Shown in pieces: positions 4,445-24,654 of a stretch of DNA of 25,654 bases (its first letter is position 1; each line of letters begins with the position of its first letter). A model generated the notes under the pieces. It did no database searches and had not been told where the DNA came from. It worked only from the letters and a program-made list of their open reading frames with translations. The stretch is taken from IMG/VR virus record IMGVR_UViG_3300006924_000149, positions 1 to 25,654 of that record. The stretch is one strand, 5' to 3'. The position numbers were made by a program, and so were the translations under genes. The stretch comes from a virus.

Positions 4445-5361
4445 TGTGCGAACTCCTCAATTGACATAGGTAGAAATTTATGAAAACTGAGCCTATTCAG
4501 TTCAGCATCAGGACTGCCGCCACCTCTATCGTATTCTACATACTTGTCTTGAGGCGCAATACCAAATAATACCGTGCTACTAGGCTCGACACCTAAATGT
4601 TTACAAAATTCTAATTGTTGTGATTTATACTTTTTATAGATAAAGTCAGGACTATAATTTTCCATTAATTGTAAACCTATATAAGCACCTAGTCTATTCA
4701 CGTAACTATTTTTGTTATAAACAAATAAAGTATCATCGTCATCGTATTTGCTTAAACGCATACCTATCCTTGCATGTGCTACTGGAAATGTTTTTGATAA
4801 ACTAAAAACAATATCAGTTATACATTCGTGCTTAAAGTTAAATTCTATAGCAGACGATATACCAAAATAGCAACAGTCAAGTAAAACAGGTATACCTAGT
4901 CTATCACATTCATCTAATGCTGCTTCGTGTAACTTGTGTTTGTTTCCTGTATTACTAAAAGGTAAACTAATAACTAGTGCGTCATTGGCATCTAAACAAT
5001 CATCATCGGCATACAACCAATTAAATTTATCACGCCATGCTAACTGGTGATAAAGATATTCACCTCTAAAACATCTGAATCTTCTATCCTTATGCTTCAT
5101 GTAAAATTTATCAAATGATTCAGTAGTACCATGAGAGTAACATTTGTAAGGAAAATCATCTATGCCTGCCATTAAATTTAGAGCTGACATTCTAATCCAA
5201 GCATGATATCTTTCTAAATATTCTTCAGTTACATTTACATCATACATATGTTCTGTGAATCTAAGAGGCATCATGTTCAAAAAGTTCATTACTTCTTGAT
5301 CGAGGACTGCTCCTGAATGTCCAAATGGTAAATGTTTTTTATCGTATGGAAACTTTTGCAT
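4426..5361 (-). CDS. PLP-dependent aminotransferase-like protein (fold type I)
   Basis: The 311-residue protein carries the signatures of fold type I PLP enzymes. SHGTTES at 76-82 would contact the phosphate, VLLDCCYFGISS has Asp162 and Tyr165 where the cofactor nitrogen and hydroxyl are held, and FSLSKTFP places the Schiff-base lysine at K190, followed by R198, G200 and R202 (the ARIGMR pattern of class I/II aminotransferases). It is shorter than the usual 380-400 residues, mainly at the C terminus, so the small domain is reduced. Amino donor and acceptor are unknown. It is the first gene of its operon: TATAAATA lies 5 bases upstream of the ATG and no Shine-Dalgarno is visible. Amination before amidination by the downstream amidinotransferase is an attractive but unproven order. 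Confidence 0.82.
   Translation of the reverse strand: MQKFPYDKKHLPFGHSGAVLDQEVMNFLNMMPLRFTEHMYDVNVTEEYLERYHAWIRMSALNLMAGIDDFPYKCYSHGTTESFDKFYMKHKDRRFRCFRGEYLYHQLAWRDKFNWLYADDDCLDANDALVISLPFSNTGNKHKLHEAALDECDRLGIPVLLDCCYFGISSAIEFNFKHECITDIVFSLSKTFPVAHARIGMRLSKYDDDDTLFVYNKNSYVNRLGAYIGLQLMENYSPDFIYKKYKSQQLEFCKHLGVEPSSTVLFGIAPQDKYVEYDRGGGSPDAELNRLSFHKFLPMSIEEFAQCIKQE
4453..4458 (-). promoter_or_regulatory. Shine-Dalgarno GAGGAG deciding a GTG start
   Basis: GAGGAG on the minus strand lies 8 bases before GTG (4444-4442). It supports GTG as the start of the glycosyltransferase-like gene inside the 3' end of the aminotransferase gene. Confidence 0.7.
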
Positions 5362-5366
5362 ACTAG

Positions 5367-5374
5367 TATTTATA
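5367..5374 (-). promoter_or_regulatory. T4-type late promoter TATAAATA
   Basis: A perfect TATAAATA on the minus strand in the 21-base gap between two codirectional genes. It is followed by CTAGT and then the ATG of the aminotransferase. T4 late transcription starts about 5 to 6 bases after this element, which would place the start at or next to the ATG. Confidence 0.8.
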
Positions 5375-5382
5375 TGCGCAGT

Positions 5383-6219
5383 TTATACCTGTTGAATTTT
5401 TATGTTTTCGTAGTGTGATCTTGGAGTTGTCGGATCGCCTTGTTGATCCATACGCTTTGGATTGGAAGGACACATTGAGCAAAAACTTTCACATCCTCTA
5501 GCAAAAAACTCTGCTAGTTCTTGATCTGTGCAATCTGCTGTTATTGGCTTATACTTTAAATAGGGATCCCATTTAGGAGATAAGTTGTATAATTTCTTTT
5601 GGAATGGTAGATATGCTAGTGGCGCACATTTGTATATTTCGTTATCTAGTAGTTGGAAACAATCTTGTCCTGTAATACAATTGTCCCAACTCTTCTGTGC
5701 GTCATTGTCTTCATAAGGCATCATATTGTTTCCATACCCTTTGTATATTTCAAACCAATATGTATGGCACGGAGCAACTTCTGCTTTAATGTTATAATCT
5801 TTTTTCCATTGTAATAGTAATTCTTCTGCAGGAGCAAACTTTTTCATATATGCTTCTTTAGTACTATGCTTACTAAGACTAATAGATATATTAGTTTCTT
5901 CTAACACTTTAGGTAAGTCAGGATACTTGTAAAGCAGAAAGCCATTAGTTTGTAAATTTAAGTTTTCGCAGTCGGGCCAGTACTTTCTTGTTAAGAAAAG
6001 AATATTATAAATGTCTTTGTTTAGTAGAGGCTCTCCTCCTAGTATATCAATGGTTTCTGGATCAAGTCTATGAGCCCAGCTCTTATACCAAGATTCTAAC
6101 TCGTCATACTTCACTATACCTGTATGTCTATGATTACTAAAATGCCCACACCCTACACATGTAAGATTACATGAGTGAGCTACATGCCACTCAAGATGTG
6201 AGATTTTTAACTTTGACAA
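5383..6219 (-). CDS. Radical SAM protein with Cys-rich C terminus
   Basis: The 278-residue protein has CNLTCVGC at C17, C21, C24, GGEP at 61-64 and LQTNG afterwards, so it is a radical SAM enzyme. The C-terminal third contains several Cys (NCITGQDC, IYKCAPLA, CESFCSMC) in a SPASM-like arrangement that could hold one auxiliary Fe-S cluster. It is related to the neighbour at 6191-7147, with similar IDILGGEP and C-terminal Cys pattern, so the two are probably diverged duplicates. The start codon is TTG; AAGGAG lies 6 bases upstream, and the protein begins just before the first strand as expected. It overlaps the upstream gene by 29 bases. Substrate unknown. Confidence 0.9.
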   Translation of the reverse strand: MSKLKISHLEWHVAHSCNLTCVGCGHFSNHRHTGIVKYDELESWYKSWAHRLDPETIDILGGEPLLNKDIYNILFLTRKYWPDCENLNLQTNGFLLYKYPDLPKVLEETNISISLSKHSTKEAYMKKFAPAEELLLQWKKDYNIKAEVAPCHTYWFEIYKGYGNNMMPYEDNDAQKSWDNCITGQDCFQLLDNEIYKCAPLAYLPFQKKLYNLSPKWDPYLKYKPITADCTDQELAEFFARGCESFCSMCPSNPKRMDQQGDPTTPRSHYENIKIQQV

Positions 6220-23054: not shown

Positions 23055-23659
23055 TAAAATCTTCCTATAAGCATGTAACGTGTATATTTGGGTAATTCTA
23101 ATTGATCTTTAACTAGCACAGTGTTTAATTTAGATTTCTTTTTAAAACTATCAAGGTCTCTTGAACAATTTAAATGTTCTTCTAGTTCAAAGTAGTTATT
23201 AGATTGTAAAATTACTTCTGAACTCTTTGGCACACGTTTTGCCCACTTGTTATATTGTTGCTGTGTAAGATGTTCGCAACTTGTATTAATAACCATGTAA
23301 GGTTGATTGGTATATTCATACTCACACATGTCAGCGGTAACTGCTGTGAATCGCCCTTCCATTTCTTGACGTTTATTAATTGTGGTTGCTGTCTCTGCAC
23401 ACTTAGGATCAATATCAACACTTGTGATATGCTTGAAACCTATTGTGCTGTTAAACAATAAATTTGCTAATACTCCGTTCCATCCTCCGAATATGACACA
23501 ACTAATATTGGACACATGATGATTTCTTTGTAATGTTTCGACTAACCATTCTTTAGATTTTAATTGTCCACCCCAAAAACTTTCAAGTGTACGATCTCTA
23601 TCTTCGCTATTGCGAACTGCATCCATCCAAAATTTTATATCTTCTATTTCAACTTTCAT
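23054..23659 (-). CDS. Class I SAM-dependent methyltransferase-like protein
   Basis: From ATG 23659 the protein has 201 residues: VIFGGWNGVLANLL with the glycine loop at 57-62, ITSVDIDPKCAETA with the acidic ribose-binding residue of motif II, FTAVTADMCEY for motif III and VINTSCEHL for motif IV. This is the order of class I methyltransferases. The loop is G-G-W-N-G rather than G-x-G-x-G, so SAM binding is plausible but changed. The start is set by an 11-base overlap with the upstream gene; a longer frame from 23689 was rejected. It sits between two radical SAM genes. Acceptor unknown. Confidence 0.78.
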   Translation of the reverse strand: MKVEIEDIKFWMDAVRNSEDRDRTLESFWGGQLKSKEWLVETLQRNHHVSNISCVIFGGWNGVLANLLFNSTIGFKHITSVDIDPKCAETATTINKRQEMEGRFTAVTADMCEYEYTNQPYMVINTSCEHLTQQQYNKWAKRVPKSSEVILQSNNYFELEEHLNCSRDLDSFKKKSKLNTVLVKDQLELPKYTRYMLIGRF

Positions 23660-24638
23660 GTAGTACCTTTGGTATCTTGCTGTCTGCACTGCTTACACAA
23701 GAGCTAGTAATGCATTTAGATGGTGTCTTAAACAGCGTAAAACCGCCCTGTAGCGTTCCTAAAGGGATATCGCTGCAACTATATGCTCTCTTAACTTCAT
23801 CACCCCTTATAATGCAGCTTTGATACCCTGCATTGCAATGCCAATTTTTAAACTTGTTGAAGTTAAATGCATTCATTCTTTCTGCTTGATCCAATCCGTA
23901 ATGGTTTCCTTTGGCATCTTCCAAATACATTTGCATGACTTGTTCGCCTTTCCAATTTTGTGGAAAGCCTGTTTGTAACTTATCAATTTGCTCATCTGTA
24001 TAACCATCAACTATTCTAGACGCGGTAGGGTCGGACTGCGGTTTAAGAGTGACGTTAATTCCTTTGTCTGCGAATCTACTACAACGCTCATAGTATTCTT
24101 CAAAGTGTTCAGGAACCATAACTTGATTAATTGTAACAAATACTCCTCCCTCCATGAGTTGCAAACATCTATCACCAAAGTCTTTTTCGTTTGCAAATTC
24201 TGCGTGATAACTTGCAGTGATGCTTCGACGTGTTAAGTGACTGGTGTTGTCTATAAATCTTGCCCACCATTTCTCACCTGGACTTAAATTAGTTGTAAGG
24301 TGTATGCTTTGATACTTAGCCTCATCGTCATTTGCATAGTATTCAACTAGGTCACCAAACTTTTTATATGCTGTTGGTTCTCCTCCACTGAAACTAAAAT
24401 GAAACTCAGTAAATCCGTTTTCTCTCGCTTGTCTTTTAATTTCATCTATTGCATTTGTATACACTTCAAAGTCTTGATGATCCGGAACATTTGAATTTGC
24501 ATACGGCCAACAGTAACTACAACTGTAATTACAAAAGCGACCAAGTATCCAACTAACGTTGAATAGTGGCTGTTTTAGCATTGTAGTTTGTCCGAACTTA
24601 ACAATGTTGTGGAACGGAATAAGAGTAAAATCATTCAT
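23649..24638 (-). CDS. Radical SAM protein with Cys-rich C terminus
   Basis: The 329-residue protein has CNYSCSYC at C36, C40, C43, FSGGEP ending at 88, and TTNLS. The C terminus (WHCNAGYQSCIIRGDEVKRAYSC, then KCITSSCVSS) fits a SPASM-like Fe-S region and parallels the 19677 gene. It is first in its module: GTTAAATA lies upstream and the ATG is 8 bases after it rather than 5, which would give a three-base leader. An internal ATG at codon 20 would still include the cluster, but no promoter or ribosome site supports it. Substrate unknown. Confidence 0.88.
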   Translation of the reverse strand: MNDFTLIPFHNIVKFGQTTMLKQPLFNVSWILGRFCNYSCSYCWPYANSNVPDHQDFEVYTNAIDEIKRQARENGFTEFHFSFSGGEPTAYKKFGDLVEYYANDDEAKYQSIHLTTNLSPGEKWWARFIDNTSHLTRRSITASYHAEFANEKDFGDRCLQLMEGGVFVTINQVMVPEHFEEYYERCSRFADKGINVTLKPQSDPTASRIVDGYTDEQIDKLQTGFPQNWKGEQVMQMYLEDAKGNHYGLDQAERMNAFNFNKFKNWHCNAGYQSCIIRGDEVKRAYSCSDIPLGTLQGGFTLFKTPSKCITSSCVSSADSKIPKVLHES

Positions 24639-24646
24639 TATGTACG

Positions 24647-24654
24647 TATTTAAC
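24647..24654 (-). promoter_or_regulatory. Late promoter GTTAAATA
   Basis: GTTAAATA on the minus strand, then CGTACATA and ATG 24638. Spacing is 8 rather than 5, the only exception among the eight late elements. Confidence 0.55.

Follow-up and report, generated by a model that had tools for sequence, protein, structure and literature searches.

In the marine viral DNA fragment IMGVR_UViG_3300006924_000149 (IMG/VR; 25,654 bases, analysed in its full length and referred to as the window), transcription units begin with octamers of the T4 late promoter type, the TATAAATA family, placed a few bases upstream of the start codon. Very probably, the first gene of many late operons, virion genes among them, is transcribed from such gp55-type promoters into an mRNA without a leader. 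This reading draws on the position of the octamers and its conservation, the absence of Shine-Dalgarno (SD) sequences, an initiator-like pyrimidine at -1, insulating terminators and gp55 homologues in relatives of the window.

According to the proposed mechanism, the octamers would serve as T4-type late promoters for a gp55-type sigma factor of the phage. Transcription would begin on the A of the ATG, thus placing the first gene of each late operon on a leaderless mRNA. The ribosome would recognise the 5'-terminal AUG of this message, translation from such a codon being known in bacteria, and the downstream genes would be reached via SD sites of their own or by overlap coupling. A second set of late genes in the same lineages would combine this octamer with a short leader that contains an SD, leadered or leaderless initiation presumably being a trait of the individual gene that is able to switch between relatives.

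Octamer spacing in the window and its relatives

Transcription units were drawn from strand changes and gene overlap, by which eight can be delimited within positions 1-24638. All eight begin with an octamer of the TATAAATA family, followed by ATG after 5 bases in seven cases and after 8 bases in one; the initial annotation had listed these eight octamers, and all were found with the places, sequences and gaps it gave. ATG is the start codon of all eight first genes. Among the 1119 ATGs on both strands of the window, only seven are preceded by NNTAAATA or NATAAGTA at gap 5, each of them a first-gene start. In dinucleotide shuffles of every gene's own upstream 60 nt, which served as control, the rate per gene is 0.2-0.6%, and the probability of a gap-5 octamer at at least seven of eight first genes is about 6e-17. 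The shorter motif TAAATA is found six times at gap 5 in the window, versus 0.1 for permuted hexamers. Counted by itself, exact TATAAATA shows no enrichment in the window, with 2 copies versus 4.3 expected; the window signal resides in the position of the octamer, not in its count.

SD sequences, scored as the 4-mers GGAG, GAGG, AGGA or AAGG at -20 to -5, precede none of the eight first genes versus 19 of the 24 other window genes, in agreement with the earlier remark that first genes lack a recognisable SD while internal genes often have one. The gene starts that had been corrected by means of the spacing hold as well, as far as they could be tested. The ATG at 7177 upstream of 7147 runs into an in-frame TAA before 7147 in locus L020, the ATG at 17673 upstream of 17637 is lost in L007-L011 and L013-L015, and for 7188 and 17692 TTG codons are the sole in-frame starts further upstream.

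A megablast search with the window gave no match among phage records and hence no near relative there; relatives were therefore collected via protein searches. The contigs read whole are carriers of the gene starting at 17692 in the window, at 81-98% identity, the more distant G013 and G014, and G016. Genes on contigs were called as simple open reading frames (ORFs), and the genome surveys scored ATG starts only. The histogram of TAAATA-to-ATG gaps peaks at 5 in G001-G006 and G014 (11, 10, 8, 10, 9, 7 and 14 sites, respectively), with a permuted-hexamer expectation of 0.2-0.8 sites per contig (0.3 in G001, 0.8 in G014). G014 was recruited through ThyX and its tie to the window is therefore looser than that of G001-G006; it encodes a gp55 homologue (E 2.5e-74). 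G015, also recruited through ThyX, has no TAAATA site at gap 5, and the ThyX-anchored loci were dropped as a single survey group, being too mixed. In all 13 relatives at 81-100% identity, the promoter of the 17692 gene retains its gap of 5, with TGAAT, TGATT, TCGTT or TTATC as spacer. A back-to-back gap-5 pair is present in G013 (50% identity) too, which was left out as a clean orthologue because its plus-strand gene is annotated from another start. The initial annotation had proposed a survey of spacing in related genomes against controls and had named variable spacing as the contrary outcome; the peak at gap 5 is sharp and well above permuted hexamers, and the gap is kept while the spacer changes.

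Three cultured isolates with deposited annotation, HTVC008M and Mosig (hosts Pelagibacter HTCC1062) and Melnitz (OM43 clade), in all of which late sigma factors are annotated, permit a comparison with annotated starts that is independent of our own ORF calls. Annotated starts make up 9 of 9 ATAAATA-N5-ATG and 12 of 14 TAAATA-N5-ATG sites in HTVC008M, and 7 of 8 and 7 of 11, respectively, in Mosig; permuted hexamers average 0.4-0.6 annotated starts, and about 3.4% of ATGs are annotated starts. Genes at gap 5 in the isolates include gp2, gp3, gp4, gp25, gp48, a tape-measure-like gene, CsgF and an adenylate/guanylate cyclase. The gap of 5 is found for gp2 in all three isolates and for the cyclase in HTVC008M, Melnitz, G001 and G006. 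The gaps in HTVC008M, Mosig and Melnitz are 5, 8 and 16, respectively, for gp25, the last one with AGGAG, and 5, 24 and 33 for gp48; because of these differences the type of initiation appears to switch gene by gene. The leaderless modules originally proposed for the gene island of the window are supported there, but the pattern is not restricted to it, as the virion genes gp2, gp3, gp4, gp25, gp48 and terL of relatives share the arrangement. In Melnitz at 129272 (L001-L003), gp3 carries TATAAATA-GTAGT-ATG, where the ATG is out of frame and lies 17 nt before the annotated start; this is possibly a relic of leaderless initiation or a step towards it.

Among comparison phages, T4, KVP40, Syn9 and RaK2 have no NATAAATA gene at gap 5 and their late genes are leadered, while one strong gene of this kind is found in P-SSM2 and two in PA5oct. 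For Ecwhy_1, BF and Phosso, the raw number of gap-5 sites is no higher than in the reversed-pattern control; in Atu_ph07 the count is 15 versus 9 in that control. Leaderlessness as a trait of the whole jumbo clade was rejected on account of RaK2 with none and PA5oct with only two strong sites.

Point of initiation and alternative readings

Bacterial transcription starts prefer a pyrimidine at -1 and a purine at +1. The base before the ATG is T or C in 71 of 73 gap-5 genes versus 366 of 827 other ATG genes (P 2e-21), the latter favouring A at this position. After deduplication by the first 12 coding bases, the pyrimidine is found in 83/83 sites of the terL set and 37/37 of the polymerase set, hence in 120/120 of the jumbo lineage. 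In the leadered late genes of the same phages, a pyrimidine-purine step is commonest at the same distance after the octamer (52/91; next best 32). In T4 late-promoter numbering the octamer occupies -13 to -6 (PMC2988020), so that at gap 5 the A of the ATG would be +1.

In terL orthologues the octamer-ATG spacing is mostly 5 and sometimes 4, 7 or 8, and a terminator hairpin occupies the -35 region. Most of the terL genes inspected have a terminator T-run that directly adjoins the octamer, 14 nt remaining to the ATG. In the seven inspected cases with a T-run, the hairpin with its seven T ends 13-14 nt before the ATG, which therefore leaves space for octamer and spacer and nothing else; in an eighth case the hairpin is present with only four T. 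Throughout the terL and polymerase sets, a terminator lies close upstream of 30 of 158 gap-4/5 sites versus 89 of 2461 gene starts generally, its distance to the octamer being 1 nt in 23 of the 30. A strongly conserved seven-T terminator hairpin abuts the late octamer upstream of terL in L218-L297, forming a compact terminator-promoter-start cassette. The T4 octamer numbering, the -1 pyrimidine and the abutting terminators argue for the initial proposal that transcripts would start at the A of the ATG.

Several points weigh against leaderless initiation as proposed. Mapped RNA 5' ends for these phages were not found in the sources available, and we infer the transcript 5' end from promoter geometry; translation of leaderless messages and the timing of their expression would likewise be read from sequence, and the idea that such messages are favoured late in infection is conjecture. 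Neither gp55 nor gp33 is encoded in the window fragment. The variants with gaps of 4, 7 and 8 exist, and a few messages would therefore carry leaders of 2-3 nt. As mentioned above, gp25 and gp48 are leadered in one phage and at gap 5 in another, and one SAR11 genome shows no comparable gap peak, from which the hosts are not obviously rich in leaderless messages. Since sites were deduplicated by the first 12 coding bases only, related sites are not independent; the kinship of contig sites weakens the P values, not the pattern across distant lineages, and the strength of the case in our view lies in the agreement among distant groups.

The octamers might be late promoters with either an initiation offset or a true start codon further on, resulting in short leaders. 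The gap variants just mentioned, the one window unit that would have a 3-nt leader and some Melnitz genes in which the gap-5 ATG is out of frame with the annotated ATG (129272) would fit this explanation, which we nevertheless regard as quite improbable: most gap-5 genes have no earlier in-frame start and are annotated from the gap-5 ATG itself, no SD follows this ATG in the manner of the leadered class, and a fixed gap would not persist were the start codon elsewhere. Still less probable is a role of octamer plus 5 nt as an AU-rich, non-SD element of translation initiation on longer transcripts that come from promoters further upstream. Leadered initiation without SD is known in other bacteria and the genes in question have no SD, but in the window all units except one of the eight begin at divergent or terminator-like gaps that leave no space for another same-strand unit upstream, and in most of the detected cases (23/30) a terminator ends 1 nt before the octamer. 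Furthermore, leadered SD genes carry the same octamer at a distance of 15-35 nt from their ATG, where a ribosome-site role is impossible, and the -1 pyrimidine is a feature of transcription start sites, other ATG genes preferring A. An origin by chance, from AT-richness or as an artefact of gene starts, for example through the TAA stop codons of upstream genes, might be suspected from the genome's GC content of 35% and the lack of enrichment of exact TATAAATA. It is refuted by the controls, which leave it a negligible probability: permuted hexamers give 0.1 versus 6 sites in the window, the leadered phages T4, KVP40, Syn9 and RaK2 lack a gap-5 peak at similar or lower GC content, and the annotated starts of the isolates confirm the pattern.

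Transcription units and affiliation of the window

The leftmost octamer, TATAAATA at 5367..5374 on the minus strand (spacer CTAGT, ATG 5361-5359), heads the unit running from 5361 leftwards to about position 1, which contains an aminotransferase-like first gene, radical SAM and 2OG-type genes. TATAAATA is found again on the minus strand at 7153..7160 (spacer GTAAT, ATG 7147-7145) in front of two radical SAM genes (unit 7147-5383), and CATAAGTA on the plus strand at 7175..7182 (spacer ACTAT, ATG 7188-7190) in front of unit 7188-9138, composed of an Asp/Arg-hydroxylase-like gene and 7906-9138.

Unit 10430-9116 is preceded by GGTAAATA at 10436..10443 on the minus strand (spacer TCTAC, ATG 10430-10428), which is kept in G002 and G006, and unit 10457-12693 by GTTAAATA at 10444..10451 on the plus strand (spacer TAGCT, ATG 10457-10459), where gap 5 is kept in G001, G002, G003 and G005 with differing spacers. 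These two late octamers abut back to back (10436-10451, within 10428-10459), with 0 bases between them. The gene headed by the 10430 promoter (9616-10430) is split into two overlapping frames in the window, with 145 residues from 10430; G002, G005 and G006 each have an undivided orthologue of 271 residues, and the window copy is therefore frameshifted, be it in reality or through assembly.

The eight-gene unit 17637-12667 begins with GGTAAATA at 17643..17650 on the minus strand (spacer TGCAT, ATG 17637-17635), and the same octamer at 17679..17686 on the plus strand (spacer TGAAT, ATG 17692-17694) heads unit 17692-20594 with a QueC-like gene and two radical SAM genes. The interval of 28 bases within this back-to-back pair (17635-17694) is kept in relatives of 81% identity. 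The exceptional gap of 8 belongs to GTTAAATA at 24647..24654 on the minus strand (CGTACATA, ATG 24638-24636), upstream of the radical SAM unit 24638-20569, and is kept in G001, G002, G003 and G005; a start at 24641 (C before A) would leave a 3-nt leader AUA. By contrast, the Hc1/ThyX side carries a sigma70-like sequence, TTGACT-N17-TATACT at 24666..24694 on the plus strand, by its consensus a putative early promoter, with a leader of about 42 nt containing AAGGA before ATG 24743. The Hc1 histone-like gene downstream of it (24743-24940; Pfam PF07432, E 9e-18) adjoins ThyX.

The island of the window contains radical SAM, 2OG/Asp-Arg-hydroxylase-like, QueC-like, epimerase and methyltransferase-like genes, followed by Hc1 and ThyX. 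It resembles the radical-SAM cassettes in the host-recognition island of pelagimyophages (PMC7029224) as well as the Mosig island at 54-73 kb. An assignment of the window to the pelagimyophages was rejected, the replication proteins of its close relatives being just 24-34% identical to those of HTVC008M. The DNA polymerase of the relative G005 is nearest to those of the jumbo phages Phosso and Atu_ph07 (46%), and the terL of G014, a contig of 268 kb, is nearest to that of PA5oct (54%). A search with phrog_263, a candidate late-transcription family, returned no match and has no bearing on the question.

Initiation factors and known systems

Genes for IF3-like proteins (PF00707) are found in the jumbo phages RaK2, Ecwhy_1, BF, Atu_ph07 and Phosso, a small sample; none is present in the leaderless phages examined, nor in the leadered T4, Syn9, P-SSM2 and KVP40. 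Genes for bS21 occur in HTVC008M, Mosig, Melnitz, G001 and G016; three jumbo phages that lack a clear gap-5 peak (PA5oct, Atu_ph07 and Phosso) have them as well. The bS21 of HTVC008M has been reported to enter ribosomes (PMC6375957). With few genomes behind it, the distribution of IF3 and bS21 relative to leaderless initiation may be taken as a lead, not as a result. We consider it unlikely, although conceivable, that two distant groups of the marine T4 superfamily use leaderless initiation as a standing late class, with individual genes assigned either to it or to an SD-led class served by the same promoters. This would amount to a translation-level switch, perhaps set by phage bS21 together with the absence of a phage IF3. 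The idea that the trait was inherited from the promoter layout of the host finds no support, the SAR11 genome showing no gap peak.

A search of the open literature for leaderless late genes in T4-like phages brought up no earlier report, subscription papers lying outside the scope. Pelagimyophage late promoters have been reported as undetectable by the methods used for cyanophages (PMC7029224), and for Melnitz 15 late promoters are listed, leaders being unremarked in the part of that source available. The late promoter and leaderless messages are each known; what is new, as far as seen, is that the two are combined in a standing class. Pelagimyophages rank with the most abundant viruses of the ocean, and their late promoters appear to exist after all, placed right against start codons. 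The gap-5 octamer offers a simple rule to find late operons and to correct gene starts in marine metagenomes. It also opens a question of translation in cultured phage-host pairs, namely how leaderless viral messages recruit the ribosomes of streamlined marine bacteria and whether this makes a difference during infection.

The closest parallel is the late promoter of T4, served by gp55, gp33 and gp45 with the host RNA polymerase (PMC2988020), which shares the TATAAATA-family octamer, the same distance to the presumed +1 and the AT-rich initiator segment, gp55 homologues being present in relatives of the window. The late genes of T4, however, are leadered, its octamer-ATG gaps cluster near 28 and no NATAAATA site lies at gap 5, whereas about half of the octamer-led genes here have no space for a leader. 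The late promoters of marine T4-like cyanophages (NATAAATA in S-PM2 and Syn9; PMC2984593) belong to the same octamer family and gp55 system, and HTVC008M, Mosig and Melnitz have the family Kyanoviridae in common with them, but gap-5 genes number none in Syn9 and one strong case in P-SSM2. Leaderless mRNAs of a lytic phage are found in the Thermus phage phiYS40, where they are reportedly favoured by a rise of IF2 and a fall of IF3 (PMC3594737); phage group, host and promoters differ from those described here. In Deinococcus-Thermus, a -10 element directly before ORFs (PMC12340547) likewise represents a promoter element fixed few bases before the start codon and yielding leaderless mRNA, although a host sigma factor and cellular genes are involved there, and a phage late sigma factor and late operons would be involved here.

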